The position numbers and the translations under genes were made by a program. 64,000 nucleotides of DNA from assembly GCA_032027085.1 (NCBI GenBank), contig JAVSMS010000001.1, positions 186,001 through 250,000 on the forward strand, in the 5' to 3' direction. Shown in pieces: positions 34,536-51,780 of the stretch (within the stretch, counting starts at the first letter, position 1; the number at the start of each line of letters is the position of its first letter). The stretch comes from Pseudorhodoplanes sp. Its GTDB lineage: Bacteria > Pseudomonadota > Alphaproteobacteria > Rhizobiales > Xanthobacteraceae. The notes beneath the pieces are model-generated. The model searched no databases, was not told where the DNA came from, and saw only the letters and a program-made list of their open reading frames with translations.

Positions 34536-34790
34536 TCAGCCTTTGGGGCAGAACGGCTCGGCGCAGACCAGGAGCGAGGGATACCATTTGCCGTCCAGTC
34601 CGCACCATTGCATACGGCAGACGCCTCCGGCGCAGGCGGCGGTGGTGTATTTCGGCGCGACGCAGGTGGCGGCGGCAACCGGCGCAGCCTTGGCCTTCTT
34701 CTTGGCGGCGTGTGACAAGGTCGTGGTTCCGGCCAGCGCGAAAGATGCAACGGCGGCGACCAGCACGCATTTCGACAGCAGCTTGATCAT
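34536..34790 (-). CDS. Small secreted cysteine-rich protein
   Basis: An 84-residue protein: signal peptide (MIKLLSKCVLVAAVASFALA), a Lys/Ala-rich spacer (AAKKKAKAAP) and a mature domain with five Cys (ATCVAPKYTTAACAGGVCRMQWCGLDGKWYPSLLVCAEPFC has six including the last). The pattern suggests disulfide folding in the periplasm. I do not recognise a named family. ATG at 34790 starts the signal. Confidence 0.6.
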   Translation of the reverse strand: MIKLLSKCVLVAAVASFALAGTTTLSHAAKKKAKAAPVAAATCVAPKYTTAACAGGVCRMQWCGLDGKWYPSLLVCAEPFCPKG

Positions 34791-34947
34791 TGTGTAGCTC
34801 CCCCATTCGTAGAAAACCCCGGTGAATAAAGGATTGCACAAAGAAAATTCCCCCACAAGCAGCCCTGTGCCATGTGAATTGGGCGGCAGATGCCGGGCGC
34901 GCGGGTCCGAATTCCGTGACCTCGCCCTGTCGGCGCGTGGCGGAGCG

Positions 34948-36066
34948 TTATTTCAGGAACGTCCTGAAGTGACGCAATGCGAAGAAGAAAAGAACCGATC
35001 CGATGCCCGCCAGCGCCAGGAGCTGCGGCCAGACCACGGACAGCCCGGCCCCGCGGAACAGGACCGACTGTGCCAGGATGATGAAATGCGTGTTGGGCGC
35101 GGCGAGCATGAGGGTCTGGATGACCTCCGGCATGCTTTCACGCGGCGTCATCGCGCCTGAAAGCACCTGGAGCGGAACGAGAACCAATATGATGAGCATG
35201 CCGAACTGCGGCATGGAACCGGCCATCGTCGCGAGGAAGATGCCCATCGAGGTGGTGGCGAAAAGATGCAGCACCGTCCCGACCATGAAGAGCAGTAGCG
35301 AACCCTGAAGGGGCACTGCCAGCAGCCCCTGCACCACGCCAATGAGGGCGACGGCGGACGCCAGCAGAACGACGAGCCCCATCGACCACACCTTGCTGAC
35401 CATGATTTCAAACGGCGTTACCGGCATGACGAGCAGGTGCTCGACGGTGCCGTGCTCCCGCTCGCGGATGAGAGCCGCGCCGGTCAGAACGATGGACAGC
35501 ATCGTGATCTGATCGATAACCTCCATGATCGCGCCGAACCAGCTCTTGTTCAGTTCCGGATTGAAACGGGAGCGCAGGACGAGTTCGATGGGCGTTTCGC
35601 TCACGCCGCGCTGGCGTTTTAGAAACTCGCTGATCTCGCTCGACACGATGGATTGTATGTGACCGCCGCCGATGAAAGCCTGCGACATGCGGGTCGCATC
35701 GATGTTGAGCTGGATCGTCGGCGACCGGCCCGCCAGCAGATCGCGCTGGAAATTCGGCGGAATATCGATGGCAAAGGTGTCGAGGCCGGAATCCATGCGG
35801 CTGTCCATTTCCACCGGCGCGATCAATTGAGGCACCAGGAAATACGGCGGATAGAAGGCCGTGACGATGCGGGAGGAAACCGGCGAACCGTCCTCGTCGA
35901 CGATCGCGATCACGGCGCGATTGAGCGTCTCCGGCATTGCCGTGGCCGCCGTGTAGATCGCCAGCGTGAAGGCGTAGACGATCAGCGCGAGCAGCACCGG
36001 ATCGCGCCGAAGCCCGCGCAGTTCCTTGATCCCGAGATGACCGATATTGGCGATGCGCATGCTCAA
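34948..36066 (-). CDS. ABC-2 type permease (YhhJ-like)
   Basis: A 372-residue inner-membrane protein: N-terminal helix ([18 protein letters not shown]), a periplasmic domain of about 130 residues, then five helices with [33 protein letters not shown], the conserved ABC-2 coupling region. Third gene of an HlyD / dual-ATPase / permease operon; it overlaps the ATPase gene by 4 nt. Confidence 0.9.
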
Positions 36067-38852
36067 CGTGCCTGCTTTCGAAGGAGGGCCACGCCGAGGC
36101 CAAGGAGCACTGGAAAAGCGATGAAAAGCGGCAGGAACGAACCCGCAAGATCGCCGAAATCAAGTCCCTTGGAGAAAGTGCCGCGGGAAATCGTCATGAA
36201 ATAGGTGGTCGGATAGATTCGCCCTATCAGGGCGCCCATCCCCTCCAGCGAGGACACCGGCTCCATCATTCCGGAATATTGCACGGCGGGAATGAGGGTG
36301 ATCAGCGTCGTTCCGAATATCGCGGCGATTTGGCTTTTTATGAACGTCGATATCACCAGCCCCATGCCGGTTGCGAAAATGACGTAGAGCAGTGCCGCTG
36401 CGGCAAAGGCTGGAAAGCTGCCGGTAAAGGGCACACGGAAGACGAAGATGGCAAAAGCCGACAGCAGCAGGAAATTCAGCATGCCCAGCACGACATAGGG
36501 AATTTGCTTGCCGACAAGGAATTCCAGGCGGGTGACGGGCGTCACATAGAAGTTGATGATCGAGCCGAGCTCCTTCTCGCGCACGACGCTGAGAACAGCG
36601 AGCATCGCCGGAATCATGAGTAGCAGCAGCGGGATGACTGCCGGCACCATCGCCACGAGGCTCTCGATGCCGGGATTGTACCGATAGCGGATCTCGATCC
36701 GGAAATCGCCGATTGTCGCCGCCTTGCCGTAAAGCTCGCGTGCCTTCTGGGTCAGCCAGTTCGCGTGCATTCCCTGCACGTAGCCGCGCGCGGTCTCAGC
36801 GCGCATCGGCATCGCGCCGTCGATCCAGGCGCCAATCTCGACATTGTGGCCGCGCGCCACATCGCGCCCGAAACCGGGCGGAATCTCGATGGCGAGGCTC
36901 AGTTCGCCGTTTCGCATGCGGCGGTCGAGTTCGGCATAGTCGAGAATGGGCGCCTTCTCGGTGAAATAGCGCGACCCGGAGAGTTGCAGCGCATAGTCGC
37001 GGCTGACCGTCGTATCGTCGCGGTCGAGCACCGCGAAGGAGAGGTTCTCGACATCCATATTGATACCGTAGCCCAGGACGAGCATCAGGATGAGGCTGCC
37101 GATGGTGGCGAGCGTGCCGCGGATCGGATCGCGGTAAAGTTCGAGCGCCTCGCGCCGCGTATAGGCCAGCATCCGGCGCGGATCGAAGCGACGGGGTGAA
37201 AAATGCGTCGGGCCAACGTTCCGCTCATCGTCAACAACAGCCGGAACGGCCGGCTCGGTGACCGGAGCGGCCGGTTTCTCGCCGACAATTGCGTCTTCCA
37301 GATAGGCCACGAACGAGTCATCAAGCGTTGCGGCGGAGCGCCTTTCAATGATTGCGGCCGGCGTGTCGCTGACCAGCACCTTGCCGGCATGCATGAGCGA
37401 GATGCGGTCGCAGAGCTCAGCCTCATTCATGAAGTGCGTCGAGACGAAGATCGTCACATTGTCCCTGCGGGACAGATCGGACAGGATCTGCCAGAAGCCG
37501 TCGCGCGCGACCGGATCAACGCCCGAAGTCGGCTCGTCAAGGATCAGGATGTCCGGCCCGTGGATCATCGCGACCGCAAGTGACAGCCGCTGGCGAATGC
37601 CGAGCGGAAGCGCGTCCGGCAGTACGTCCAGGACTGCGGTTAGCTCGAAACGCTGCGCCATTTCGGCCACCCGAGCGGGGATGGCGGCTTTCGGCATGCC
37701 GAACAGACGCGCATGCAGATCGAGATTCTGTCGCACCGTCAGCTCGGAATAGAGCGAAAAGGCCTGCGACATGTAACCGACGCGTCGGCGGACTTCGATG
37801 TCGTTGGGATCGACCTCGCGCCCGAACAGCCGTGCCCTGCCTTCGCTCGCCGCCAGAAGGCCGGTCAGCATCTTCATCGTCGTGGTCTTGCCGCAGCCAT
37901 TCGAGCCGAGGAATCCGAAAATCTCGCCGCGGCCGATGCGGAAACTGACATCATCAACCGCGATGAAATCACCGAACTGCATGGTCAGGTGCTCGGCCTC
38001 GATGGCGATTTCCTCGTTCGGCCCGTCGGGTCGCGGCGGAATGACAACCGCGCGATGTCCGCGGCGTTTCTCCTCCGGCAGCAACGCGATGAAGGCGGCG
38101 TCGAGCGTCGCCGCACTGGTTCGCGCCAGCAGGTCTTCCGGTGTGCCGGTGGCCAGCACATGCCCGGCATCCATTGCCACCAGCCAGTCAAAGCGCGCCG
38201 CCTCCTCCATATAGGCGGTTGCGACAATGACGCTCATGCCGGGATGATCGGCCCGGATATCCTCGATCAGTTCCCAGAATTGCCGGCGCGACAGCGGATC
38301 GACGCCGGTCGTCGGCTCATCAAGGATCAGGAGGTCGGGATCGTGGATCAGCGCGCAGCACAGGCCGAGCTTCTGCTTCATGCCGCCCGAAAGCTTGCCC
38401 GCTGGCCGCTGCGCGAACGGCGCGAGGGCCGTGCGTTGCAGGAGTGCGCGGATGCGGCGTTCGCGCTCCCGCCTGTCGTGACCGAACAGGCGGCCGAAGA
38501 AATCGACATTCTCGAACACCGACAACGTCGGATAGAGATTCTTGCCTAGGCCCTGAGGCATGTAGGCGATGCGCGGGCAGGTCTGCTGCCGGTGCGCTGC
38601 ATTGGCCATGTCGCCGCCGAGCACCTCGACCCGCCCGTCCTGGACGGCGCGGGCGCCGGCGATCAGCGACAGCAGCGTCGACTTGCCGACGCCATCGGGC
38701 CCGATAAGCCCGACAATGCAGCCAGCCGGCAAATCCAGCGTGACATCCTCGAGCGCACGCGTTTTCCCGTATGACAATCCCGTTGCCTGCAAGCGCGCGA
38801 CAGGGCGGTCAAACGGCGGAGACAAGACCCCGGCACTGCGCCACTTGCTCAT
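36063..38852 (-). CDS. RbbA-type fused ABC ATPase/permease
   Basis: A 929-residue protein with two ATP-binding domains and one ABC-2 permease. NBD1: Walker [10 protein letters not shown], signature [10 protein letters not shown], Walker [17 protein letters not shown]2: Walker [10 protein letters not shown], signature degenerate (LPLGIRQRL), Walker [14 protein letters not shown] linker with a membrane anchor (about residue 560) and a C-terminal six-helix permease follow. E. coli RbbA/YhiH has this layout. ATG at 38852 overlaps the HlyD stop (ATGA). Confidence 0.93.
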
Positions 38853-39919
38853 TGCACCAGTGTTCCGCTCAGATTGGCCGGCCAATCTGCTTTCGGATCA
38901 AGCCGGACATAGGCACGGCCGGGAAGGCCCGTTTTGACGTGCTGGATGTATTTGCGCAGCAATTCCGGTGGAATCTGAGCCTTGATCCGGAACATGAGTT
39001 TTTGTCGCTCGTCTTCGGTCTCGACCGTCTTGGGCGTGAACTGGGCGACGTCGGCGACAAAGCTTACTCGGGCGGGAATGACATATTGCGGCACCGCATC
39101 GAGGACAATGCGCGCCTCACTGCCGATCGCGACGCGGCCAGCCTGCGCGGTCGGAAGAAAAAACGTCATATAGACGTCTCCGAGATCCACGAGATTGAGC
39201 ACGCGCCCGCCGGCCGACAGAACCTCTCCCGGCTGTGCGACGCGATACTGCACGCGCCCATCGCGGGGTGACTTCAGCGCCGAGTCGTTGATGTCGGCGG
39301 TGACGCTCTCGATCGCCGCGCGCGCCGCCTCAACGGCTGCCTCGGCATCGACCACTAGCGCCTTGGCTGCGTTGATCGCGGCTTCCGTAGCCGCACGCTG
39401 AGCCTTCGCCGCGCCGACCGCCGCTCTCGCGCCTTCGGCTGACGCACGGTCGTCATCGAGAATCTGCTGGGATATGGCCGCGGTCTTTATCAGTTGCTCC
39501 GAGCGCTCCAGCTTTCTCTGCGCCGAATCAAGCTGCGCCTCGCGCTGCGCCACCACTGCGACGGACGCCGACTGTTCCGCCTCCCTTTGCACCACAAGAC
39601 TTTTCGCGGTGTCGACGTTGATGATTGCCCGCCGCAATTGAGCTTCCGCCTGTCGGCGTTGCGCTTCCAGTTGCTCGGTATCCATGCGCCCCAGCAGCTG
39701 TCCTGCGCGGACGAAGTCGCCTTCATTGACAAGAATGTCCTTGATCCGTCCCGGAATCCTGGTCGAAACGTCGATCTCGACGGCTTCGATCCGGCCGTTG
39801 CCGCTGGCGATCCCCTCCGGCAGACCGCTATCTGCGGACCTCTCCCAGGCGTAATAGCCGCCGCCGGCCAGTATGAGAGCAAGCACAATCCAAAGCCATG
39901 GTTTGCCGGATATGACCAT
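38849..39919 (-). CDS. HlyD-family membrane-fusion protein
   Basis: A 356-residue periplasmic adaptor: one N-terminal transmembrane helix ([17 protein letters not shown]), lipoyl half [39 protein letters not shown], a long Ala/Glu-rich coiled coil (about residues 75-200) and a beta-barrel ([17 protein letters not shown]). It links the RbbA/YhhJ exporter to an outer-membrane channel. First gene of the operon. Confidence 0.93.
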
Positions 39920-40310
39920 GAATGAAAACCTCTGCGCGGTCCCTGGGTGAAAGTTACGGCCGTGATCTCACTAGCAACAGCGCATTTCTCTGGCCATGAA
40001 TCTTCGCAAAGATTTGATGACGCAATCTGTCGGGCGTCCTTGCAAACAAATTGACGCGATTTCGTTTCGAGAAGGCACGATGTCTGCCACCAACGATCGA
40101 AATTTGATCTAATCAAAATTCGATCCAAGCATGCCGCATGTCTTCCATGTTGCACTTTGCAGCCTCGATGACATGCAGGCCTTGAGGCAAGTCAACCGCC
40201 CGTTGACGCTTGCCGCGCCAGAGGCTTTCACGAGTAAAGGAACGACGCAACAGCCCGGAACTACGCCGCTCCGCAGCGATTGACACAATCCAGCATCCCG
40301 GGAGATAGCA
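39920..40310. other. Divergent intergenic region between exporter operon and alcohol dehydrogenase
   Basis: 391 nt without a supported gene. It contains promoters for both flanking units and the perfect-looking palindrome at 40095-40125. AT content is above that of neighbouring genes. Confidence 0.6.
40095..40125. promoter_or_regulatory. 31-bp palindrome, probable operator
   Basis: GATCGAAATTTGAT (40095-40108) and ATCAAAATTCGATC (40112-40125) are inverted copies with one mismatch and a 3-bp centre. Size and symmetry suit a dimeric regulator. It lies about 175 bp from the HlyD start and 185 bp from the alcohol dehydrogenase start. Confidence 0.7.
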
Positions 40311-41381
40311 ATGCGGAAAATGAAGGCTGCTATTCTTGCCGAGAAGGGACGCATCGTCCTCGACGAGAAGCCCGTTCCGGATGTCGGCCCGCTCGATGCG
40401 CTCATCCGCGTGACCACGACGACGATCTGCGGCACCGACATCCATATCCTCAAGGGCGAATACCCTGTGGCCCGCGGGCTCACCATCGGCCATGAGCCGG
40501 TCGGCGTGATCGAGAAACTGGGCTCGGCTGTCACCGGCTATACAGAGGGCCAACGCGTCATTGCCGGCGCGATCACGCCCAGCGGGCACAGTTATGCCTC
40601 TCAGTGCGGCTGCGGCTCGCAGGATGGACCGGGCAAGCGCCACGGCTTCAAGCTCATGGGCGGCTGGAAATTTGGCAACACTGTCGATGGCTGCCAAGCC
40701 GAATATGTCCTCGTCAACGACACCATGGCGAATCTCGGCCCGGTGCCGGATCACCTCACCGACGAGGAAGTCCTGATGTGCCCCGACATCATGTCGACCG
40801 GCTTTTCCGGGGCGGAAAGCGGCAACGTCAAGATCGGCGATCTGGTCGCGGTCTTTGCGCTCGGCCCCATCGGACTTTGCGCGGTCGCCGGTGCAAAGCT
40901 GATGGGAGCGGCAACAATCATCGGCGTGGACACGGTGCCCGAACGCATCGCGGCGGCCCGCGCGCTCGGGGCCGATCATGTTGTCGACTTCAAGGCCGAT
41001 AATCCGGTCGAGCAGATCATGGCGTCGACAGAGGGTCGCGGCGTCGATGTCGCCATCGAGGCTCTTGGAACACAGGGCACCTTCGAATCGGCGCTGCGCG
41101 TCTTGCGGCCGGGCGGAACGCTTTCAAGTCTTGGAGTCTATTCCTCGGATTTGCGTATTCCGAACGATGCGTTTGCCGGGCTCGGCGACTTCAAGATCGC
41201 GACCACGCTCTGTCCCGGCGGCAAGGAACGCATGCGGCGCCTGATGGGCGTGATCGGCTCCGGCCGCGTCGACCTCAAGCCGCTGGTCACGCACCGCTTC
41301 CGCCTCGACCAGATCGAGGAGGCCTATGAGCTGTTCGCCAACCAGCGCGATGGCGTGCTCAAGGTCGCCATCACGCCCTGA
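40311..41381 (+). CDS. Zinc-dependent alcohol dehydrogenase family protein
   Basis: A 356-residue medium-chain dehydrogenase. Catalytic zinc region TTTICGTDIHILKGEYP and GHEPVGVIEKLG; the structural zinc lobe is reduced (SQCGCGSQDGPGKRHG), as in the Clostridium isopropanol dehydrogenase branch. Rossmann motif FALGPIGLCAVAGAKLMGA. NAD(P)-linked; substrate probably a secondary or short alcohol. GGAG precedes the ATG. The last ordinary gene before the integrative element. Confidence 0.9.
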   Translation: MRKMKAAILAEKGRIVLDEKPVPDVGPLDALIRVTTTTICGTDIHILKGEYPVARGLTIGHEPVGVIEKLGSAVTGYTEGQRVIAGAITPSGHSYASQCGCGSQDGPGKRHGFKLMGGWKFGNTVDGCQAEYVLVNDTMANLGPVPDHLTDEEVLMCPDIMSTGFSGAESGNVKIGDLVAVFALGPIGLCAVAGAKLMGAATIIGVDTVPERIAAARALGADHVVDFKADNPVEQIMASTEGRGVDVAIEALGTQGTFESALRVLRPGGTLSSLGVYSSDLRIPNDAFAGLGDFKIATTLCPGGKERMRRLMGVIGSGRVDLKPLVTHRFRLDQIEEAYELFANQRDGVLKVAITP

Positions 41382-41578
41382 GCTGGGCACTGGGTTTCGT
41401 CGCGAAGATGACGCTCGGAATATCTTGCGGCGGGCGCGAAACCCGCTGACGCTCCTGTTCCCGGAACGTTCGGACAACGTTGGCGTCTGCAACGTTGGCA
41501 TCATCGCGACTACGTGTCAGGAACTCTGGGGGCCGCCTCTCCCGGCGGTTCGTAATTCGCTCAAAACCCGGTCGAAGA

Positions 41579-41623
41579 TGGTGGGCGCGACAGGGATCGA
41601 ACCTGTGACCCCTACCATGTCAA
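41579..41623 (-). tRNA. 3' fragment of tRNA-Val(GAC), probable att site
   Basis: The minus strand reads from the anticodon loop TTGACAT through GGTAG, the T arm ACAGGTTCGATCCCTGT, the acceptor strand CGCGCCC and encoded CCA. The anticodon is GAC (Val). The 5' half is missing: upstream bases (CGTCC) do not pair with GGTAG. A break at the anticodon loop is a classical integrase crossover site, so this is read as the displaced 3' end left by an integrative element to the right. Confidence 0.85.
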
Positions 41624-41644
41624 GGACGGGCCGCGAGGCTCATC

Positions 41645-42313
41645 TTGGCTATTTTCAAAGACTTACCGCAACTGCGAACGACCGCTGACAAGCGGGATTC
41701 TTCAGCAAATTCAACACCGCTTGGGATTTGCGTGGGATGCGGCTTGCTGCCCGCGGATGCACCTCCCGCACACAAGAAGGGCGAGCCGGGCGGCACATTG
41801 CTCGCAAGTCTTAACCACGAAACGCAGGCGCGGCTGCGCGAAATGGGCGCCGGCCATCGCACCGAGTTCGGCACCAGCCGGCGCATCCAGGCGACCTTCG
41901 ATCAGTATATCGGCTTAATCGACGAACTGATCAGTCGCGGCGCCGACCACAACACCATCGGAGAATTGTTGGCCGCGGTCGGCATCGATCGCGGCAACGG
42001 CTCACCCCTGCCGCTCGGCACCATCTCCGGGGCGCTGAGCCGCGCGCGGGAACGCGCCCGCGCGAGCACCAACCAGCCGGCCTCCACGCTGCAGCCTCCT
42101 GCCGCGCAATGCATGCCACTGCAGGACACTGCAGGATCGCGCACGACAGCGCCGGTCCGGGACGCACAGTCAAGCACACCGCCGGACCCGCGGGGCCGTG
42201 GCCTGTCGAGGCCGCTCCCCCGTCGCCGCAAACCAGCGATCCCTGCCGCACGCGATGCGGCCGACCTCCTCAATCGTCTCAGATCCACATCGCAGGAGAA
42301 GATCAATGAGTGA
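41645..42313 (+). CDS. Uncharacterised accessory protein
   Basis: A 222-residue open frame, first on the element. The middle (LNHETQARLREMGAGHRTEFGTSRRIQATFDQYIGLIDELISRGADHNTIGELLAAVGI) is predicted helical and resembles small partition/relaxosome-type helical domains only in composition; the C-terminal half is Pro/Arg-rich. The start is uncertain: 41645 is TTG; a GTG about 30 codons later is possible. It overlaps the next gene (ATGAGTGA), suggesting a real cotranscribed gene. Confidence 0.55.
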   Translation: MAIFKDLPQLRTTADKRDSSANSTPLGICVGCGLLPADAPPAHKKGEPGGTLLASLNHETQARLREMGAGHRTEFGTSRRIQATFDQYIGLIDELISRGADHNTIGELLAAVGIDRGNGSPLPLGTISGALSRARERARASTNQPASTLQPPAAQCMPLQDTAGSRTTAPVRDAQSSTPPDPRGRGLSRPLPRRRKPAIPAARDAADLLNRLRSTSQEKINE

Positions 42314-43148
42314 TGCAAACAAGCTCACACTGACCGGCACTGGGATGCCGCAGGTCATCGAGTTTTCCGCCGATGCTACCGGCGTCGGAAAAACCACGGC
42401 AGCATGGCGCTTCCGCCACCACTGCGATCAGCATGGCGTCAAGACCGCAATGGTGACGATCGAGTCGCGAGGCGTCACCCGCTCGCAGGCACAGCGTCAG
42501 CGCCAGCAGGACGTCATCATCGAAACCGAGGATTTCAAGCGCGCACGCGAGTTGCCGGGCGGCCTCGTCGGTGTGCTTCAGCCGCTTTACCTAAAGATCG
42601 AAAAGGCCGCCGAGACCCACAGCATCGTGATTGTCGATTGGGCCGGTGGACAGGCGCAGGCGCGCCTCGAGGCATTGGCTGCGACGCAATTCGACGAGCG
42701 TCTCGCCGAACTGGACCTCGTCGGCCTCGCAGTGATTGTCAGCACCTGCGCGATTGAGAAGATGGACCAGGCATCCAATAACCTCCTCCGCACGCGGGAA
42801 GTGGCGCCAGGCCTGCAGCGCGCGTTGCTGCTCAACGCACGCGGCGGCGCTTTCGAGTTCATCCCAGGCTCCGCTGCGGCCATTGCTTACAAGTCGCTGC
42901 TGAAATCGGCGCAGGGAGCCAGCATCATCCGCTTCCCCCCGATAGAGGGCGAGAGCTGGCAGGAATGCCAGCAGGCGGGCCTGTCGATGCCGCAGGTGAT
43001 CAAATCAAAGCCGGCCGAGGTTGCGGCAAAAACCGGAATGAACCGCTTTACGGCAGCCGCCTGCCGTAACGAGATCGCGGCCTGGTACCTGCGGACGAAG
43101 GCTTCGATCAATCAGGTGCTGCCCTTTCGCGCTGCGGACGCGGTCTGA
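42306..43148 (+). CDS. P-loop NTPase, ParA/TraL-like
   Basis: A 280-residue protein. VIEFSADATGVGKTTAAWRFRHHC holds a Walker A of the deviant ParA/SIMIBI style; SIVIVDWAGGQAQARLEAL replaces Walker B; strand order fits a MinD-type fold. The C-terminal part (VIKSKPAEVAAKTGMNRFTAAACRNEIAAWY) is helical. Such genes on plasmids and ICEs act in partition or conjugation. ATG at 42306 overlaps the upstream stop. Confidence 0.65.
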   Translation: MSDANKLTLTGTGMPQVIEFSADATGVGKTTAAWRFRHHCDQHGVKTAMVTIESRGVTRSQAQRQRQQDVIIETEDFKRARELPGGLVGVLQPLYLKIEKAAETHSIVIVDWAGGQAQARLEALAATQFDERLAELDLVGLAVIVSTCAIEKMDQASNNLLRTREVAPGLQRALLLNARGGAFEFIPGSAAAIAYKSLLKSAQGASIIRFPPIEGESWQECQQAGLSMPQVIKSKPAEVAAKTGMNRFTAAACRNEIAAWYLRTKASINQVLPFRAADAV

Positions 43149-43158
43149 TGCGCAGCTG

Positions 43159-43365
43159 GTGTGGCTCCTCGTGCAGCGCCGTCGGATTCAGCGCATCGCC
43201 GCGCGGCACTTGCTCACGCATTATCGTGTCCATCGCGCGCTCAACCGGCGCTGGTTCTGGCTGCTGGATGACCGCACCCTCGCGCGCATCGTCGTCCGGG
43301 GCGAGATCGAATGGCTGTTGCGAGAGTGCCTCTATCGCCTGCGTCGCCTGGCTGGCTTGGGTTGA
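43159..43365 (+). CDS. Small basic hypothetical protein
   Basis: A 68-residue Arg/Trp/Leu-rich protein (RRRIQRIAARHLLTHYRVHRALNRRWFWLLDDRTLARI) with GTG start. Codon third positions are G/C rich as in real genes here, and the overlapping frame at 43148 is Ser/Cys-rich, so I prefer this one. Function not recognisable. Confidence 0.4.
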   Translation: MWLLVQRRRIQRIAARHLLTHYRVHRALNRRWFWLLDDRTLARIVVRGEIEWLLRECLYRLRRLAGLG

Positions 43366-43431
43366 TAAGCAATGGTTAACCTAGCTCCAAATTGCATGCG
43401 CCACTTATTTGACTCGCTCAACGCTGATCAG

Positions 43432-43447
43432 ATATGGTGCGCCATAT
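43432..43447. promoter_or_regulatory. Inverted repeat upstream of the excisionase-like gene
   Basis: ATATGG (43432-43437) and CCATAT (43442-43447) flank a 4-bp centre, 24 bp before the ATG of the small HTH protein. Possible autoregulatory site; overlaps a plausible -10 region. Confidence 0.45.
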
Positions 43448-43470
43448 ATTTGGTTCAGAGAGAGGACATC

Positions 43471-43674
43471 ATGACATGCAAAGACATCTCACCAGAGCAC
43501 CCGGACAGCGAATGCCGTCTGCTGAGCTGCGCGGAGACAGCCGCTTATCTGCACGTGTGCCAGGAGACAGTGCGCCGTCTCAAACGCGCCAACAAGCTGC
43601 GCGCGGTGCCGGGCTTGCGAAAACTTCTGTTCACGAGCGAGGCCATCAACGACTTCCTGCGGGGCGAGCCGTGA
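43471..43674 (+). CDS. Excisionase-like HTH protein
   Basis: A 67-residue protein with a MerR/excisionase-type winged helix: LLSCAETAAYLHVCQETVRRLKRANKLRAVPGLRKLLFTSEAINDFL. Proteins of this kind (HTH_17) act as recombination directionality factors or regulators of integrase genes. ATG at 43471 has AGAGAGG upstream. Stop overlaps the next start (GTGA). Confidence 0.75.
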   Translation: MTCKDISPEHPDSECRLLSCAETAAYLHVCQETVRRLKRANKLRAVPGLRKLLFTSEAINDFLRGEP

Positions 43675-43874
43675 GTGAAAACACACACAACGTCCCGCGC
43701 CCGCGCCGACGCAACCACCACTGGATCGAATGGAACTTGAAGCGTGGGACAGAGCACGTTTGCTGGCTCGACGAAGACACGGGGCAGGTCGTTCGCCATA
43801 TCGTCCAGAATGTTTGTGTCGAGACGGTTCTCAAGAGGGCCAAAAAGCTGCGCGCCATGCGGAGGAAGCCGTGA
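43671..43874 (+). CDS. Small protein homologous to the integrase N-terminus
   Basis: A 67-residue protein: NHHWIEWNLKRGTEHVCWLDEDTGQVVRHIV aligns with KHHWVVRDVKRGTLHVCWYDAATRQVGRRSL of the following integrase. It is a free-standing copy of that DNA-binding or regulatory module. GTG at 43671 and the next GTG at 43871 each overlap the preceding stop, so three genes are tightly coupled. Confidence 0.6.
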   Translation: MSENTHNVPRPRRRNHHWIEWNLKRGTEHVCWLDEDTGQVVRHIVQNVCVETVLKRAKKLRAMRRKP

Positions 43875-45019
43875 GCCGTTACGAGCGTGTCGACCCGCCG
43901 CATGTGCAGCGATTCAAGCACCACTGGGTCGTTCGAGACGTGAAGCGCGGAACACTGCACGTGTGCTGGTACGATGCAGCTACTCGTCAGGTTGGCAGGC
44001 GCAGCCTGGGCACTGTGGATATTGAAGTCGCGTTCACGAAAGTGCGCAGCTACGAGGACAGAGGAATAATAGGCGATCCGGGCGAACTCCTTGATCAAGC
44101 ACTTATTGAAACAGTCGAGCAGTTGCTCGACTGGCACTTGCCGTACACGTTGAAACTGGCATCGGCGGAGGCTGAAGGAATTCATATACGTCGTCTGAAA
44201 CAACATATTGGCCAGCGCCGCATCGCCTCGCTCGTACAAAGCGACTTCGAAAAATTCCGTGATGATCTTACTGGTGAAGGCCTCAGCATCGGTACGGTGT
44301 CGCGTACACTCACAACTTTGCGCTCGGCGTTGAAACGAGCGGCGAAAGATCGCCTGATCAAGCCAGACAAGGTCCTCTTCGTACCTGAATTCGCCAAGAA
44401 GAATTACTGGCGCAGCGTGCAGCCAAAAGGCCGCATCATGAAGCTCGCAGAGCTTGCAAGGTTGATTGACCAGATCGCCGATCTGCATCTGCTCATCTTC
44501 GTCATCTTCATGCTTAACACCGCCGCGCGGCCGGGTGCGATCCTGGATATGACTGGCGCGCAAATCGATCTGTCGCGCGGCGTGCTTATGCTTAATCCGG
44601 TGGGTCGAATTCAGACGAGCAAATTCCGACCCGCCCTGCCGATCACCGACACCTTGTTGCCATGGTGCGAGAACGTTCCGCCCGGACATCTGATTACGTG
44701 GCGCGGCAAGCCGGTCACAAAGATCAAGAGCGGCTTTGCGAACGCGGCCAAGCGCGCCGGTCTTCCTGGGCATGAGGCCGCCTACAGCATCCGGCACATG
44801 CTCGGTCGCCATATGCGTGCGAGCGGAGTCTCAATCGAGGAAATCGGTGTCTGGCTTGGTCATATACAGCCGCCAACATCGCCGGAAACGACGCTGATCT
44901 ATTCGCCTGACTCGCCGGACTACTTGGGCGAGGCCAAGGCCGCCGTCGAAGACTTCGTGGGTGAGATCAATGCTCTCACCAAACACGATCTCCTATTGCC
45001 GCCGGGGCGCTGGTCATGA
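43871..45019 (+). CDS. Tyrosine recombinase (integrase)
   Basis: A 382-residue site-specific recombinase. Short N-terminal module (residues 1-60), a SAM-like core-binding domain (SLVQSDFEKFRDDLTGEGLSIGTVSRTLTTLRSAL) and a catalytic domain with Arg in NTAARPGAILD, a YSIRHMLGRHM box in place of HxLRH, then VWLGH and a late Tyr (TTLIYSPD). It is the likely integrase acting at the tRNA fragment 2.3 kb away. Confidence 0.82.
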   Translation: MSRYERVDPPHVQRFKHHWVVRDVKRGTLHVCWYDAATRQVGRRSLGTVDIEVAFTKVRSYEDRGIIGDPGELLDQALIETVEQLLDWHLPYTLKLASAEAEGIHIRRLKQHIGQRRIASLVQSDFEKFRDDLTGEGLSIGTVSRTLTTLRSALKRAAKDRLIKPDKVLFVPEFAKKNYWRSVQPKGRIMKLAELARLIDQIADLHLLIFVIFMLNTAARPGAILDMTGAQIDLSRGVLMLNPVGRIQTSKFRPALPITDTLLPWCENVPPGHLITWRGKPVTKIKSGFANAAKRAGLPGHEAAYSIRHMLGRHMRASGVSIEEIGVWLGHIQPPTSPETTLIYSPDSPDYLGEAKAAVEDFVGEINALTKHDLLLPPGRWS

Positions 45020-46044
45020 CCAAGCCAACCCGCACAAAGGAGACGGAAGCCGCGTACCTTCGGCGATTCGCGCAGCTCAAGAGCAGAGTTGAAAAATCGC
45101 TCAGCCGAAAATGCACGGTCATGGAATTCGCGACCGCGCTGGTCGAAAGGATACGCCCGCAATTGTCGCCCCAATCGTGGCGCCAGTATCGCGCTGCAGC
45201 TTGTTATGGGCTTGAATTAAAGCGCGTCGCCTTCCCTGATAGCAAAGACCCCGTTGATACAGCCGTGTTGCTGCTGAGGAACACACCGCCTGCTGGTCGC
45301 CCGCCCGACCGCACACTGCGTACGTCGCAGAAGAAGGCCAAAAAGGTGCCCATTGACGACCTCACTGCCATTCAACGCCACGTCCTGGCTGGCCAGTCTC
45401 CCAGACGCCAGAATTTGGCAGATTACTTGGCTGCCGCTGATCTGACCGGCTTGCGACCGTGTGAATGGCGACGGTCGCAGTTGCGGCCAAGCACGACGCC
45501 TGGCCTTCAGTGGGAGCTGATTGTAGCCTGTGCGAAGCGAACGAACGGACGCGCACATGGCAACGAGCGCACGCTGCGCTATCAGAAACTCGAAGCAGAG
45601 CTCGTTGTTACCCTCATGCGCTGGATCGCCGTCGCCCGCGAAGCTGAATTGAACGGTCGATATGGCAAGTTGATGAAGGCGCTCGGCTCGCTCATGCGCA
45701 ATTGCTGCGCGGAAGTGTTCAGGCGACGCAAGCAACGGCCGACACTTTACACACCGCGCCACCAGGCCGCCGCCCGCTGGAAAGCGTTCTTCGTCAGAAC
45801 CGACGACACCCCTGAAAAGCAGGAACACGGCCGTGCCATCGTCGCCACTTTGCTTGGACACGCCACCGACGTGACCGCGACACACCACTATGCCCGACCC
45901 GATTCCGACGAGCGCGGGTCAAGGGGCCTAGCGATTCCGGTAGCCGATCCCAGCGAGGTCGCGCGGATTCGCCGGAAATATGCAGTCAAGCTGGAAATGA
46001 AAGCGGCACGTGAATTGCTGCCGGCGTCCGGCCGACGGACCTGA
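45016..46044 (+). CDS. Second tyrosine-recombinase-like protein
   Basis: A 342-residue protein overlapping the integrase by 4 nt (ATGA). Although less obvious, it keeps recombinase landmarks: Arg in LTGLRPCEWRRSQL, LYTPRHQAAARW in place of HxLRH, and VATLLGHATDVTATHHYARP carrying LGH and the Tyr. Paired recombinases of unequal type occur on some ICEs; partner function in excision or in regulation is inference. Confidence 0.7.
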   Translation: MTKPTRTKETEAAYLRRFAQLKSRVEKSLSRKCTVMEFATALVERIRPQLSPQSWRQYRAAACYGLELKRVAFPDSKDPVDTAVLLLRNTPPAGRPPDRTLRTSQKKAKKVPIDDLTAIQRHVLAGQSPRRQNLADYLAAADLTGLRPCEWRRSQLRPSTTPGLQWELIVACAKRTNGRAHGNERTLRYQKLEAELVVTLMRWIAVAREAELNGRYGKLMKALGSLMRNCCAEVFRRRKQRPTLYTPRHQAAARWKAFFVRTDDTPEKQEHGRAIVATLLGHATDVTATHHYARPDSDERGSRGLAIPVADPSEVARIRRKYAVKLEMKAARELLPASGRRT

Positions 46045-46177: not shown

Positions 46178-46690
46178 TTAACCCTCATCGGCGTCCAATA
46201 TTGACCCCTTCGAGCGACGGGTTTTGGCGCTAGCGCTCGCGCCGTCGGAGTTGGTCGGGGTTGCGCAGCCGATCGTCCGTTGCGGTGAGATGGGCGTAGG
46301 CCGCGGCGTGAGGTAGGCCAACGCCGAATGCGGGCGGCGCAAGTTGTAGTTGCCGATCCATCTGGCGATCACGGATCGCGCATAGTCGAGGTCGGAGAAG
46401 ATCGTCTCGTTCAAGAGCTCATCTCGCGGGTACGCCCGTCGAAGGCTTCGCAGATGCATTCTGCATAATCTTGCCGGGCGCGATGAAGTGCCATGCGACC
46501 TTGGAGGCCTGCGTCCAGGCGACCAGGGCGCTGGAGGTGAACTCCGTCCCTGATCGGGGACGATCAGGTCCGGCTTCCCGCGTCGAGCGATGATGGCGTC
46601 GAGTTCGCGCGCCACCCGCCGCCCGGAGATCGATGTGTTCGCGATCGCAGCCAGGCATTCTTCGGTCACATCATCGACGACGTTCACGGG
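46178..46690 (-). mobile_element. IS3-family orfB remnant
   Basis: Pieces of an IS3-type DDE transposase in two frames: NVVDDVTEECLAAIANTSISGRRVARELDAII, then TEFTSSALVAWTQASKVAWHFIAPG in another frame, then DELLNETIFSDLDYARSVIARWIGNYNLRRPHSALAYLTP. At least two frameshifts, no start and no first half. It abuts a broken yggS at about 46688. Confidence 0.82.
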
Positions 46691-46925
46691 CCTCCTGAAG
46701 CTTGTTTTCCCCGAAGTCGGAGATTCCTGCAGCGTATGCCAGCCGCAGAACATGGGCCGGCACCGTCTTGGTGACGGACAGCAACCGCACATCGGCAGGA
46801 TGCGGTCCGCAGCGATGGCAGGCAGCGGCGATACGCTCATGAACAGCTTTCAGGTTCACTGCGAAAGCCGACGCAGGATTATCACCAAAGCGAGCAATCT
46901 CTTCGGGTGAAAGCTCGATCGTCAT
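46671..46925 (-). pseudogene. yggS: PLP homeostasis protein, N-terminal fragment
   Basis: Starting at ATG 46925 (MTIELSPEEIARFGDNP) the frame runs into AVHERIAAACHRCG then VRLLSVTKTVPAHVLRLAYAAGISDFGENKLQEAR, the YggS/PLPBP signature including the PLP-Lys region (SVTKTV). Homology stops at about 46686, where the IS3 remnant begins, so about two-thirds of the gene is lost. It follows glyA by 24 nt. YggS binds free PLP and buffers it. Confidence 0.88.
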
Positions 46926-46949: not shown

Positions 46950-48254
46950 TCAATAGGGCAGCGGAAAACGCGCCACGAGCTGGCGTACGCGAGCGTTGAT
47001 CGATTGCCGTTCTGCATCGAGCGTTCCGTCACAGACAGCATGGAGGGTTGCGAGAATGAGGGCAGCGACCTCGCGATACTCGTCCATTCCGAAGCCGCGC
47101 GACGTTCCGGCCGCAGAGCCGACACGGATGCCCGACGTCACCATAGGTTTCTCCGGGTCGTTCGGGATCGCGTTCTTATTGACAGTGATGCCAACCGATT
47201 CAAGTGCCTTTTCGGCGATATTGCCGGTCACGCCGAAGGGGCGCAGATCGATGACGGCCAGATGGCAATCCGTGCCGCCAGACGTTATTTTTAGTCCGCC
47301 GTCGGAAAGAGCCTGCGCGAGCACCCGACAATTCTCGACGACTGCGCGCGTGTAGGTTTTGAAGGACGGTTGCAGCGCCTCACCGAACGCGACGGCCTTC
47401 GCGGCGATGACGTGCATGAGCGGGCCGCCCTGAAGGCCGGGGAATGTCGCGGAATTAATCTTCTTCGCGATCCCGGCGTCATTGGTCAGGACAAACCCGC
47501 CGCGCGGTCCGCGCAAGGTCTTGTGCGTGGTCGATGTAACGACATCGGCGAAGGGCACGGGCGACGGATAGACGCCGCCGGCGACGAGCCCCGCGAAATG
47601 CGCCATGTCGACGAGCAGGATTGCGCCCACCTCGTCGGCAACCCCGCGGAAGCGCGCAAAGTCTATGATGCGCGGATAGGCCGAGCCGCCGGCGATTAGG
47701 AGTTTGGGCCGATGCTGGCGCGCGAGTTGCGCCACCTGATCCATGTCGATGAGATGTGTCTCCGCGTCGACACCGTAGCTCACGGCGTTGAACCAGCGGC
47801 CGGACATATTGACCGGCGCGCCGTGCGTGAGGTGCCCCCCAGCCTTCAGGTCTAGACCGAGGATTGTGTCGCCGGGAGTGAGCAACGCGAGGAAGACTGC
47901 CTGATTGGCCTGACTGCCTGAATGGGGCTGGACATTGGCATGAGTGCTGCCAAAGAGTTGGTTCACGCGCGCGAGCGCCAAATCCTCAACGACATCCACA
48001 TTCGTGCAGCCGCCATAGTAGCGGCGATTCGGATAACCTTCGGCATATTTGTTGGTGAGCACAGAACCCTGCACGTCGAGTACCGCCTGGCTCACGAAAT
48101 TCTCCGATGCGATCAATTCGATGGACTCGCGCTGCCTGACTTTCTCGTTTGCGATCGCGAGGGCAACCGCAGCATCGGCGGAGGTTAGGCCGACAGCGCT
48201 CACGCCTGCGCTCGCTATTGTCTGAATTGCGCGCGGCGCGACCGATGTTTCCAT
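46950..48254 (-). CDS. glyA: Serine hydroxymethyltransferase
   Basis: A 434-residue PLP enzyme: [60 protein letters not shown]-Lys in [16 protein letters not shown]. It converts serine and THF to glycine and 5,10-methylene-THF. Sequence looks intact. It lies between a MocR gene and a yggS remnant, unlike the usual glyA-nrdR context, so it is probably an accessory copy acquired with the cluster. Confidence 0.95.
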
Positions 48255-48331
48255 CGTTGATCTCCTTCAAAGTGCTGGCAACTAACCGACAGCTACGCCC
48301 TGGGCTGGGTGTTAGTCAGCGCCTACCATAA

Positions 48332-48380
48332 ATTTGGTCTGATGAACCCTGCCATTTTACGAAGTATGGCCAGACCAAAT
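48332..48380. promoter_or_regulatory. Inverted-repeat operator upstream of glyA
   Basis: ATTTGGTCTG (48332-48341) and CAGACCAAAT (48371-48380) are perfect inverted 10-mers about 39 bp apart centre to centre, in the 133-nt gap between the MocR stop and the glyA start. MocR proteins bind paired half-sites, so this is a likely target for the neighbour. Confidence 0.7.
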
Positions 48381-48387
48381 GCCGGTG

Positions 48388-49923
48388 CTATGACTGCATC
48401 GCGTCCCGAAATGCATTCGCCAGTTTCCTGACCGCGATTTGGATTTCGGCCGGCGTGTAGGCGGCAAAACCCATCAGAAATCCCGCCTTGCCGTCACCGG
48501 TCACATGGAGCGCCGATAGCCCCAGAAGCTCGATCCCGGCACGCCGCGCGGCATCGATGGCGGCCCGTTCGGGTAAGTCGCAGGTCAGCACGCACGGCAT
48601 TTGCAGGCCGCCAATCGGAACGCGTGGCTCAACAAAATCCGCAAGATGCTTGCCAACGAGGCTCACCAGCAGGTCGAGCCGTCCGGCATAAACGCCGCGC
48701 ATGGTGCGTACATGTGCCCCGAAATGTCCGCCTTCCATGAACCGCGCCAGCGTCAGTTGAGCTATTGACGCCGTGTGCCCGTCCAGCAGCGTGCGCGCCA
48801 CGGTCATCGGCTTGACGAGCTGGGACGGCAGAACGACGTAGCCAATCCGCAAGCCTGGAAAGAGCGATTTGGTGAAGGTGCCGATGTAGATCGTCCGCTC
48901 ATGCGGATCGAGCCCTTGCACGCAGGCAGTCGGCTTTCCAGCGTAGTGGAACTCACTGTCGTAATCGTCTTCGATGATCCACGCCTGATGCCGGACCGCC
49001 CATTCGATCAGGGCGAGGCGGCGATCGAGCGCCAACGTTGCACCGGTCGGGAACTGGTGGGAGGGCGTCAGGAAAATGGCCCTGGCCTTGCGTGGTTCGG
49101 CCATGATCTGCTCAACCATGATACCCTGGCGGTCGACACGGATCGGAACGCATTCGAGCCCCGCCGCGTCGAACGCCTTGCGCGCGCCGTAATAGGCCGG
49201 GTCTTCGATGAAGATGCGATCGCCAGGATCGAGTAGCATGTTTGCGCACAAGATCATCGCCTGCTGCGAGCTTGTGAGGATCAGTACACGATCGGCGGTG
49301 GCGCGCGCGCCGCGCTCAAGATTCACATAGTCGGCGATCGCTCGCCTTAGCGGCACGGTGCCTTGCGGATCACCGTGAAGCAGGGCCTGCGTTCCGGTTT
49401 CCTTCAGCACCTGCCGTCCCAGACGTTCCCAGAGCTGAAGTGGGAAGCTGCGCGTGTCCGGCACGCCATGCGCGAACGGCCGGGGCGACAACATCTCGCG
49501 TACGCCGCCGCCGCGGAACATGGCGTTCCCGCGCTTGCTGAGGTTGGGGGCCTGCTTGCGCAAAAGCGTATCGCGCTGTGAGAGCCGGCGACCGGGCGTG
49601 AACTCCGTCATCTCCGCAACGAAACTGCCGCTCCCAATGCGCCGATCAATGAAGCCTTCGGCATGGAGCTGTGCATAGGCTGCCTCGATCGTGTCGCGGG
49701 AGACGCTGAGCGATTTGGCGAGCATGCGCGAGGCCGGCAGCGGCTTTCCTGGGCCAAGCGCACCGTCGAGGATCAGTTGCCGGATGGCCCGCTGTATCCG
49801 CGCATGAAGCGGCATTGCCGCATGTGCGGGGTGAGCAAGCCATGCCTTTACGGACTCCAGTTGAGAATGCTTGAACAAATGGTCTGAACCTCTCGAATAA
49901 AGTGGATGGAAACACCGGACCAT
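48388..49923 (-). CDS. MocR-family (GntR/aminotransferase) regulator, PdxR-like
   Basis: A 511-residue regulator: winged helix LHARIQRAIRQLILDGALGPGKPLPASRMLAKSLSVSRDTIEAAYAQLHAEGFI at about residues 40-95, then a fold-type I aminotransferase domain with the PLP Lys in IGTFTKSLFPGLRIGYVV and DDYDSEFHY. MocR proteins sense PLP or amino-acid imines; PdxR controls PLP synthesis. Neighbours glyA, yggS and pdxY fit that role. Confidence 0.88.
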   Translation of the reverse strand: MVRCFHPLYSRGSDHLFKHSQLESVKAWLAHPAHAAMPLHARIQRAIRQLILDGALGPGKPLPASRMLAKSLSVSRDTIEAAYAQLHAEGFIDRRIGSGSFVAEMTEFTPGRRLSQRDTLLRKQAPNLSKRGNAMFRGGGVREMLSPRPFAHGVPDTRSFPLQLWERLGRQVLKETGTQALLHGDPQGTVPLRRAIADYVNLERGARATADRVLILTSSQQAMILCANMLLDPGDRIFIEDPAYYGARKAFDAAGLECVPIRVDRQGIMVEQIMAEPRKARAIFLTPSHQFPTGATLALDRRLALIEWAVRHQAWIIEDDYDSEFHYAGKPTACVQGLDPHERTIYIGTFTKSLFPGLRIGYVVLPSQLVKPMTVARTLLDGHTASIAQLTLARFMEGGHFGAHVRTMRGVYAGRLDLLVSLVGKHLADFVEPRVPIGGLQMPCVLTCDLPERAAIDAARRAGIELLGLSALHVTGDGKAGFLMGFAAYTPAEIQIAVRKLANAFRDAMQS

Positions 49924-49989
49924 TCATCCGCTAAATGTCAAGGCATGTCCATTGGGCCTTGGCCCCGATTCAGGAGCCCTTTCAAGGTT

Positions 49990-51222
49990 ATGTCGTCCAG
50001 ATCCTCACCAGCGTCCATTCGCCTGATTGATCTCACCCACCCCACTGTCGCGGGGTTGATTTCCGTCATCGTCAACTATGGCGGAACCTTCATCCTGGTC
50101 TTTCAGGCGGCGAAGGTTGCGGGTCTGAGCCCGGAACTGACGGCATCGTGGGTCTGGTCCGTATCCATCGGCGTGGGACTGACGGGACTGTTCCTGAGCT
50201 TGCGCTACCGCGAGCCGATCATCACCGCCTGGTCGACGCCGGCAGCGGCTTTTCTCGTCACCGCCCTGGCAACGACACCCTATGCAGAAACTGTCGGCGC
50301 CTACATGATTTCGGCATTGGCTTTCGTTCTGCTCGGTCTCTCGGGCTATTTCGAGAAAGTGATCCAACTGATCCCGCCGGGCATCGCGTCTGGCCTGCTT
50401 GCGGGCATTCTGCTCCAATTCGGCATCGGGGCATTCGACGGCGCAAGCATCGAGCCTCTCCTGGTCGGGCTGCTGATCGTCGCCTATGTTCTGCTGAAAC
50501 GCTTTTCTGCTCGTTACGCCGTGGTCGGCATCCTCGTTCTCGGACTGGCCTTCCTTCTCGTACAGGGTCGCGTTGACCTGTCGGGGCTCCAACTGCAGTT
50601 TGCCGCTCCGGTCTTCACCATGCCCGAATTATCGCTCAATATGCTGCTGAGCGTCGCACTGCCCTTGTTCCTCATCACGCTGACCGGGCAATACATGCCA
50701 GGAATGCTCGTTCTGCGAAACGACGGCTTCAAGACCAGTGCCAATCCCATCGTCACCGTGACCGGCCTTGGTTCGCTGCTCATGGCTCCGTTCGGCTCCC
50801 ACGCGTTCAACATCGCGGCCATTACGGCGGCGATCGCCACTGGCAAGGAAGCGCACCAAGACCCGACGAAGCAGTGGATCGCGGGTATTGCGGCGGGCTG
50901 CTTCTATATCCTCGTCGGCGCATTCGGCGTGACCCTCGCCGCCGTGTTCATGGCGTTTCCCGCAACCTTTATCACAACCCTCGCCGGTCTGGCACTGCTC
51001 GGCACGATTGGCGGCAGCCTCGCAGGGGCGATGGCCGACCCAATCTCACGCGAAGCGGCGCTGATTACGTTTCTGGCTTCGGCCGCAAATATCAACCTGC
51101 TCGGCATCGGCGGCGCATTTTGGGGACTGGTGATTGGCCTTATCGCCCACATTATGCTGAACGGCCGCTTGCCGCGCCGTGAACGCGCCGATCTGGCCGT
51201 GCGCGAAAGCGCCGCGAAGTGA
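49990..51222 (+). CDS. BenE-family membrane transporter
   Basis: A 410-residue protein with about 11-12 transmembrane helices. IVNYGGTFILVFQAAKVAGLSPELTASWVW and YREPIITAWSTPAAAFLVTAL are BenE hallmarks; YMPGMLVLRNDGFKTSANPI and a late FGSHAFNIAAITAAI fit the family. Named members import benzoate with protons. Sitting between a MocR gene and pdxY, it may carry a pyridine-like vitamer instead, which is inference. ATG at 49990 chosen; an earlier ATG overlaps the MocR start. Confidence 0.82.
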   Translation: MSSRSSPASIRLIDLTHPTVAGLISVIVNYGGTFILVFQAAKVAGLSPELTASWVWSVSIGVGLTGLFLSLRYREPIITAWSTPAAAFLVTALATTPYAETVGAYMISALAFVLLGLSGYFEKVIQLIPPGIASGLLAGILLQFGIGAFDGASIEPLLVGLLIVAYVLLKRFSARYAVVGILVLGLAFLLVQGRVDLSGLQLQFAAPVFTMPELSLNMLLSVALPLFLITLTGQYMPGMLVLRNDGFKTSANPIVTVTGLGSLLMAPFGSHAFNIAAITAAIATGKEAHQDPTKQWIAGIAAGCFYILVGAFGVTLAAVFMAFPATFITTLAGLALLGTIGGSLAGAMADPISREAALITFLASAANINLLGIGGAFWGLVIGLIAHIMLNGRLPRRERADLAVRESAAK

Positions 51223-51239
51223 TGGCCCAGGGGATACCC

Positions 51240-51476
51240 ATGTCCATCATTTCAATTCAGGGCCAGGTCCTGCATGGGCGCGTCGGCAATAGTGCCGCCG
51301 TCCTGCCCATGGAGGTTCACGGCCTGAATGTCGCGGTAATCAGCTTTGACGTTGCAGGAACGGCGGCATTCTTTGGAATGAAGGCGGAGTTGCAGAACGT
51401 CTATCAGCGCGTTGCCAAGATCGAACGCACTCCAGCAACTTGCGAGTGTCGTGGTACAATCCGCGCGCCAGGATGA
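51240..51476 (+). pseudogene. pdxY: Pyridoxal kinase, N-terminal fragment
   Basis: ATG at 51240 begins MSIISIQGQVLHGRVGNSAAVLPMEV, the signature start of PdxY, which phosphorylates pyridoxal in salvage. Similarity is lost after about 34 residues (near 51342), where the frame turns into unrelated sequence. Six-sevenths of the kinase is missing. It follows the BenE-like gene by 17 nt. Confidence 0.85.
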
Positions 51477-51780
51477 ACTGCTCAATGCAATAGAGCGGCG
51501 TGTCGATCGCCTTGAGCAAATCCAAGCCCTAAGACCCCCTGAAACCGATCGGCGATTCCAACGCGTACCCTCTCGGCCGAGCAAGTAGCTACCTGCGCGT
51601 TTTGCCGTTTTGCAAGCATGAGCGACGCAGGCAGCTACGGACACACCAGCAAAGTAGTTTCCTGTCAGAAATAGTCCTGGCTGACGTTCGAAACCGTCAT
51701 TCAAGGCCGCGACGAGGGCATGATGCCCGATTCGGTATTGCGGCAGTCCGCGTGACCAATGTCGCACGCGAGCGTGCACC
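51343..51780. other. Gene debris between pdxY fragment and IS
   Basis: About 440 nt with no whole gene. A plus-strand string QQLASVVVQSARQDELLN then AIERRVDRLEQIQALRPP ends at a stop near 51588 and looks like the coiled-coil tail of a lost protein, frameshifted from QNVYQRVAKIER. The rest is unrecognisable. Confidence 0.5.

Follow-up and report, generated by a model that had tools for sequence, protein, structure and literature searches.

The 64-kb stretch of Pseudorhodoplanes sp. DNA analysed here (the window; G000:186001-250000, where G000 is the source genome, a single contig of 4,968,360 b) carries on its minus strand, at window positions 41577-41625, a 49-bp fragment identical to the 3' half of the intact tRNA-Val(GAC) gene (G000:2679440-2679488). 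This displaced 3' half, which extends from the anticodon loop to CCA plus TC, forms the core of a putative attachment (att) site of a genomic island. To its right lie, in this order, genes coding for ORF222, an ATPase, a protein of 68 amino acids, a helix-turn-helix (HTH) protein and two recombinases, Int1 and Int2. The initial annotation had described a half-tRNA-Val(GAC) on the minus strand that lacks its 5' half, together with an excisionase-like HTH protein, two tyrosine-recombinase-like genes and a ParA/TraL-like NTPase nearby. The coordinates of the half proved correct, with the identity extending to 49 bp, and Pfam matches, conserved residues and structural models confirmed the neighbouring genes.

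ORF222 (41645-42313, plus strand) is located between the att core and the ATPase gene and gave no family match in Pfam at 0.1, NCBIfam at 1 or PHROGs at 0.1. Homologues are present at the Bradyrhizobium loci L191, L192, L196-L201 and L203 and, because these are mostly shorter, the true start of ORF222 is probably further in. The ATPase (42306-43148, plus) has a Walker A motif, GVGKTT, recognised by eye, and a ParA-like modelled fold (mean pLDDT 85.4). Its closest structures are ParA/ParF proteins, with TP228 ParA as the top Foldseek match (E 6.6e-7, TM 0.50/0.64), and its only NCBIfam match, to ParA (0.0047), falls below the cut-off. The following small basic protein of 68 amino acids (43159-43365, plus) has matches only in L197 and L203 and none in NCBIfam or PHROGs. 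The excisionase-like HTH protein (43471-43674, plus; ATG start inferred within the open reading frame (ORF) 43372-43674) matches the Pfam family HTH_17 (6.8e-8) and, below the cut-off of that family, the NCBIfam family 'excise' (1.3e-4). A small ORF with an inferred start (43671-43874, plus) resembles a duplicated N-terminal domain of Int1; the frame 43434-43874 gives a weak match (E 0.005) to a profile built from Int1 with two homologues.

Int1 (43871-45019, plus; 382 amino acids) is a tyrosine recombinase matching Pfam Phage_integrase (2.3e-7) and phrog_1 (8.9e-31), and its residues R220, R308, H331 and Y344 are invariant across three sequences, the window copy and two homologues. The gene coding for Int2 (45016-46044, plus; 342 amino acids) overlaps the end of int1. 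No significant family was found for Int2 in Pfam (0.019) or PHROGs (phrog_31181, 0.059), and NCBIfam gave no match at all; residues R147, K174, R248, H282 and Y292 are invariant across the window copy and five homologues. We take the conserved residues of both proteins to be catalytic. The Int2 model (pLDDT 79.7, pTM 0.63) has six Foldseek matches at E<=0.001, the nearest of which are Cre and its derivative Tre (E 4.5e-4, TM 0.46/0.49), and we predict that Int2 is a second tyrosine recombinase with a Cre-like fold. Judged by sequence and model only, Int1 and Int2 are recombinases encoded close to the element end, 2.2-4.4 kb from the att core, and no other ORF with a tyrosine-recombinase pattern was found in G000 200-480 and 2660-2900 kb.

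The exact 45-nt half occurs at only two places in G000, namely at 227579-227623 (minus strand), which is the fragment in the window, and in tRNA-Val(GAC) at 2679412-2679486 (plus strand). The latter is the sole tRNA-Val(GAC) found in the genome and lies 2.45 Mb from the half on the opposite strand. Besides these two, the sole match of the half at E<=0.001 is tRNA-Val(CAC) at 4.04 Mb (92%). ARAGORN detected no intact tRNA in the window, and no second tRNA-Val half was found between window positions 33.0 and 41.5 kb. The expectation that an intact tRNA-Val(GAC) would lie at the far right end of the element was therefore wrong: G000 126001-490000 contains no intact tRNA-Val, its sole tRNA being tRNA-Gln(TTG) at 441717-441791, and the gene is located 2.45 Mb away in inverted orientation. 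It had been stated in advance that the lack of a matching repeat in the 200 kb on the right would speak against an integrated element, and such a repeat is indeed absent, but the genomes of relatives suggest that integration was followed by a rearrangement.

The flanks of tRNA-Val(GAC) were compared in six genomes of the same genus (G002-G007; G001 was left out at this locus), using the window genes between 27336 and 34262 (D genes) and the genes upstream of the distant intact tRNA of G000 (U genes). Orthologues of the D genes adjoin tRNA-Val(GAC) in all six relatives, on the 3' side in five and on the 5' side in G006, and in four of them, G002, G004, G005 and G007, orthologues of the U genes are found 5' of the tRNA. 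Both groups surround one tRNA-Val in five of the six genomes, four of them with the tRNA orientation of G000. On a single G005 contig the order is G000 190-220 kb, tRNA-Val and G000 2673-2630 kb reversed. The window segment 30139-34262 (plus) is the native chromosomal flank of tRNA-Val, as its orthologues are tRNA-adjacent in all six relatives and colinear in G005:C4. The tRNA-Val locus is uninterrupted in these five relatives, whereas in G000 a distance of 2.45 Mb separates the D side, which has the displaced half, from the U side, which has the intact tRNA, although the two belong together. Because relatives have both chromosomal sides around one tRNA-Val, we conclude from these sequence comparisons that the fragment at 41577-41625 represents a displaced att end of a locus that was later split, and that the element would run rightward from there. 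The initial annotation had likewise read the fragment as a displaced end with the element to its right, and this reading is supported by five of the six genus relatives and by five Bradyrhizobium genomes.

Two further observations concern this locus. The tRNA-Val(GAC) of G006 (G006:C1:3411854-3411928) is flipped in place relative to two flanks that are common to G005 and others. A 7.3-kb segment of the window (34262-41577), which separates the conserved flank from the tRNA half, contains genes for ABC transporters and for a zinc alcohol dehydrogenase; the G005 orthologue of this dehydrogenase gene adjoins RND genes, which in G000 follow the distant copy of the 6-kb block described below (2688.9-2694.3 kb).

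The module itself recurs in Bradyrhizobium. Int1 is present in 3 of 391 genomes of the family sample at E<=1e-30, G000 included. A scan of genome contigs with Int1 alone as query gave no matches; with an Int1 alignment, the scan returned Bradyrhizobium sp. RP6, B. cytisi CTAW11, Bradyrhizobium sp. CCBAU 51627 and a distant Chromatiales metagenome-assembled genome, the last with only a 27% match to Int1. In RP6 and B. cytisi CTAW11, ORF222 and the genes for the ATPase, the HTH protein, Int1 and Int2 follow in the order of the window, and the same tRNA-Val half is located just before ORF222. CCBAU 51627 has an Int1 relative and an HTH gene without the tRNA-Val half. Homologues of the ATPase were found in 13 of 265 Bradyrhizobium genomes at E<=1e-12, at 14 places (L195-L208) that were taken with ~1.5 kb of flank each, and the loci with a tRNA-Val half among these end before Int2. 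At five of the 14 places (L198, L199, L200, L201 and L203) the ATPase is accompanied by the tRNA-Val half, ORF222, HTH protein and Int1, and Int2 was also seen in the two of these genomes whose flanks reached far enough. The number of independent events is below five: L199 corresponds to the RP6 place, L198 is apparently that of B. cytisi, and L199 and L200 are near-identical. At the remaining nine places Int1 is not matched, and within 1.5 kb the half is represented by 18 bp at most. In L195 and L202 a half was read by eye as tRNA-Pro(CGG), Int2 follows the ATPase in L195, L196, L197 and L202, and L205 has a short Int2 match.

The DNA after the CCA matches the native downstream region of the intact tRNA-Val in genome G031 over 94 columns (90%) in L192/L198 and over 157 columns (86%) in L200, and in L191/L199 only in shorter, shifted pieces. 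On the element side, the sole match is 14 bp long, in L201. The module is thus associated with integration at tRNA-Val(GAC) in two genera. A tblastn search against plasmids returned only distant relatives, and among the open-access papers found by literature searches none could be recognised from title or start of abstract as dealing with the module, which is weak evidence of absence. RP6 carries two tRNA-Val halves 1.9 kb apart (L191:5941-5992 and 7856-7908), which suggests tandem integrations at one tRNA. In CCBAU 51627, one tRNA-Pro(CGG)-like half lies beside the Int1 relative (L193 near 11235; G357:C83 ~766.5 kb) and another beside the ATPase-Int2 pair (L202 near 3187; G357:C83 ~989.6 kb); the two, ~223 kb apart, are possibly related ends of one or two elements. 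In another genus, two G024 contigs start at or within 2 bp of the 49-bp tRNA-Val repeat (C271:1-49 and C123:3-51), as could happen in a draft assembly if an island occupied this tRNA.

The two att ends of G000 do not bound a contiguous element, as they are 2.45 Mb apart and inverted. An inverted repeat of 5,983 alignment columns with 91.9% identity is located at G000:381233-387196, 154 kb from the displaced half, and at 2682263-2688235, 2.8 kb from the intact tRNA; the second copy contains a chemoreceptor and a GGDEF/EAL gene. These 6-kb blocks are the likely site of an inversion. GC skew, measured in 20-kb samples, is negative in all samples of the arc that starts at 3.75 Mb, crosses position 0 and ends at 1.77 Mb, and positive in all samples between 2.0 and 3.52 Mb. 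With the skew switches taken at gap midpoints and ranges taken over the gaps, the shorter arc now makes up 35% of the chromosome (31-40%), and undoing the inversion at the blocks would bring it to 49% (45-54%). Tetranucleotide composition, calculated in 8-kb windows, is native-like up to ~226 kb, mostly over the 95% core limit from 230 to ~437 kb, and over this limit in all six windows starting at 2679-2699 kb. A direct repeat of 1.2 kb with 99.7% identity (G000:376473-377707 and 2965687-2966920) is probably an insertion sequence (IS).

We consider it fairly probable that an island integrated at tRNA-Val(GAC) by means of its own module and was later split by an inversion at the 6-kb blocks. 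An island carrying ORF222, the ParA-like ATPase, the excisionase-like HTH protein, Int1 and Int2 would have entered the 3' half of tRNA-Val(GAC) site-specifically, which would have restored the tRNA at one end and pushed the original 3' half to the other (41577-41625). In a later step, homologous recombination between the inverted chemoreceptor and GGDEF/EAL copies, one in the island and one elsewhere, would have inverted ~2.3 Mb and moved the restored tRNA, the upstream chromosome and ~3-9 kb of the island to the opposite part of the chromosome. The att sites would now be inverted, so that a crossover joining them would flip the chromosome and not release the island. The displaced half, the split locus and the family of modules with its link to tRNA-Val are shown, whereas the action of the recombinases on this site, the homologous exchange at the blocks, the sequence of the two steps and the cargo are deduced. 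One might further speculate that Int1 and Int2 act as a chromosome-scale switch, in which recombination between the half and the distant tRNA-Val flips 2.45 Mb back and forth and alters the replichore balance. We regard this as unlikely; if true, one island could exist in a contiguous-attP and a split state.

A number of observations weigh against the proposed integration and later inversion. Undoing the inversion at the att sites would give an arc of 53%, a balance nearly as good as that obtained at the blocks, and beyond ~2703 kb the composition is only patchily atypical (11 of 50 windows). The other inversion junction could not be read in the relatives, G003 included, as the G005 contigs end, G006 is rearranged, and six further genomes lack synteny there; a candidate for it, G003:C4:180-184 kb against G000 2893-2898 kb, was rejected as a paralogous cluster whose true orthologue lies on G003:C10. 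The 7.3 kb between 34262 and 41577 are not found beside tRNA-Val in the compared flanks of the relatives. The comparison with relatives, for which the initial annotation had called, has two exceptions: in G006, one of the five genomes with both sides around one tRNA-Val, the tRNA is reversed between its D and U flanks, and G003 shows the D side only, with no U orthologue in the ~7 kb of contig left. In L201, L203 and the window itself, the DNA beyond the half has no match to the native downstream region of G031. No relaxase or type IV secretion system (T4SS) family is among the Pfam families listed for 83 scanned ORFs, a set without small ORFs and the 390-450 kb region, which leaves transfer of the island unexplained. 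Lastly, an error in the assembly has to be reckoned with.

The final geometry would be identical if a circular element, similar to a bipartite integrative and conjugative element (ICE), had crossed over at tRNA-Val by Int1 and Int2 and also at a second att site, with the second step inverting the chromosome. This is the model put forward for Bradyrhizobium tRNA-Val elements in the available text of two studies (PMC9174649, PMC9239051), and a serine-recombinase family is present in the ORF set from 270-310 kb. A convincing second att repeat was, however, not found between 227-480 and 2679-2900 kb, where a short core would be missed; among 20 collected tRNAs, tRNA-Gln included, a displaced half exists only of tRNA-Val; and Int1 and Int2 alone fit the tyrosine-recombinase pattern there, a search that would miss other recombinase types. 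We see this route as rather improbable. Apart from the 49-bp core and the 6-kb block, the two regions have words of 18-29 nt in common, but we do not believe any of them to be a second att site; the longest in inverted orientation (27 nt; 468.7/2827.9 kb) coincides in part with a word found at many places in relatives. The tRNA-Gln(TTG) at 441.7 kb was likewise rejected as a second att site, as neither island stretch was found to contain a displaced half of it and the gene is present at the equivalent position in G003. On the 3' side of this tRNA-Gln(TTG) (G000 left of 441717) the composition is atypical, and the DNA of G003:C4 there has no core matches; this side may be a second island site.

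The order of events could also have been reversed, with the element entering by homology at the chemoreceptor block and Int1 and Int2 then joining a free attP to the inverted tRNA-Val, which would invert 2.45 Mb directly. The product would be the same, with breakpoints at the two att ends, where the composition also shifts, but such a route requires an integrated element with an unused attP in the middle of the island, and two or more of the Bradyrhizobium relatives have the appearance of ordinary displaced-half integrations; we have strong doubts about it. Similarly doubtful is the explanation that the island is contiguous at tRNA-Val and that the assembler flipped the segment between the 6-kb repeats. 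This segment is indeed bounded by inverted repeats, and the replichores, as judged by GC skew, are unbalanced as assembled and nearly balanced if flipped, yet the genome is a single contig and the 8% divergence of the repeats is enough for long reads to distinguish them. Partial tRNA genes are common in bacterial genomes, and the half could on that ground be an unrelated pseudogene or a chance remnant beside an unrelated recombinase pair. With half, orientation and gene order being the same in five Bradyrhizobium genomes and the locus being split at this very tRNA relative to the genus, we consider this almost certainly wrong.

Next to the module, a transposase ORF (46178-46840, minus strand; Pfam rve_3 4.7e-13) is probably an IS remnant, and the presumed cargo within the window follows at 46950-64000, where Pfam matches identify SHMT (46950-48254), a MocR-type regulator (48388-49923) and further ORFs. 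We infer from the geometry that all cargo belongs to one island; the DNA is mostly atypical in composition. The pyridoxal phosphate (PLP) cluster and the efflux operon, which had been proposed as cargo, lie inside the element by the same geometry and are largely atypical in composition, which falls short of proof. The cargo scan covered 83 ORFs (81 of the 92 listed ORFs plus two) in the window from 46-64 kb and in G000 250-390 kb with Pfam at 1e-10, and in one of its four sets 25 of 29 families are listed. The set of 23 ORFs from window 46-64 kb and 250-270 kb includes BenE, ABC, HlyD and RND families, whose positions are not resolved individually. Other families are ResIII, N6_N4 methylases (in two sets), a Tle1-like phospholipase domain, hydantoinase subunits, chemoreceptors, a serine recombinase and transposases. 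A SAVED-domain gene at G000:284829-286457 (L007:14829-16457) and a SMODS family in the same ORF set form a CBASS-like defence locus in the presumed island. At 350-390 kb (L011, L012), two BadFG and two HGD-D proteins, presumably of benzoyl-CoA reductase families, occur with AMP-binding, enoyl-CoA hydratase and thiolase families, and these genes are possible cargo for anaerobic aromatic degradation of the benzoyl-CoA reductase type.

Taken together, we class this element as a derived, split tRNA-targeting genomic island. Both att ends of this tRNA-Val island survive half a chromosome apart, and a search for a matching repeat nearby would miss it. With this, a conserved and mostly unnamed module, including an ATPase with a ParA fold and a Cre-like recombinase, is tied in two genera to a specific target, tRNA-Val(GAC), and the role of each recombinase is directly testable on a 49-bp substrate. 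The island is likely a homology-based counterpart to the bipartite symbiosis ICEs.

tRNA-targeting islands with a single tyrosine integrase duplicate the 3' half of the tRNA and restore an intact tRNA at one end. The island described here shares the duplicated half, identical to the intact tRNA over 49 bp, and the intact tRNA at one end, but has two recombinases and an ATPase in a conserved module, and its ends are 2.45 Mb apart and inverted. GInts (ginABCD) resemble it in having several tyrosine recombinases, one of them often annotated as hypothetical, and a small protein at the end of a cargo island, but their available description gives three recombinases and imperfect repeats of 10-17 nt, and the word tRNA does not occur in its main text (PMC5385486). 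With two recombinases and a 49-bp tRNA core instead of three plus ginD with short imperfect repeats, the island is not a member of the GInts. Several Bradyrhizobium symbiosis islands are described, in the part of the report available, as having tRNA-Val at one end and a 'Recombinase' at the other and a G+C content below that of the chromosome (PMC11837538). The tRNA at one end, the recombinase gene at the other and the low G+C content are features in common; here, however, a tyrosine recombinase pair occurs with a ParA-like ATPase and an HTH protein, whereas the recombinases of those islands are mostly given as 'Recombinase', with the type unstated. The closest parallels are with the bipartite tRNA-Val symbiosis ICEs of Bradyrhizobium, which are predicted to invert the chromosome on integration (Weisberg et al. 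2022; PMC9174649, PMC9239051). As far as the available text of these studies describes them, they share the tRNA-Val target, foreign DNA at two chromosomal places, a large inversion between the parts, an effect on replichore balance and 'locked-in' variants that arise when an att site is displaced. The symbiosis ICEs contain genes for symbiosis as well as T4SS loci, and each of their two att sites has an integrase, whereas in the island described here neither a second att site nor a T4SS was recognised, and a homologous block was the likely second crossover.

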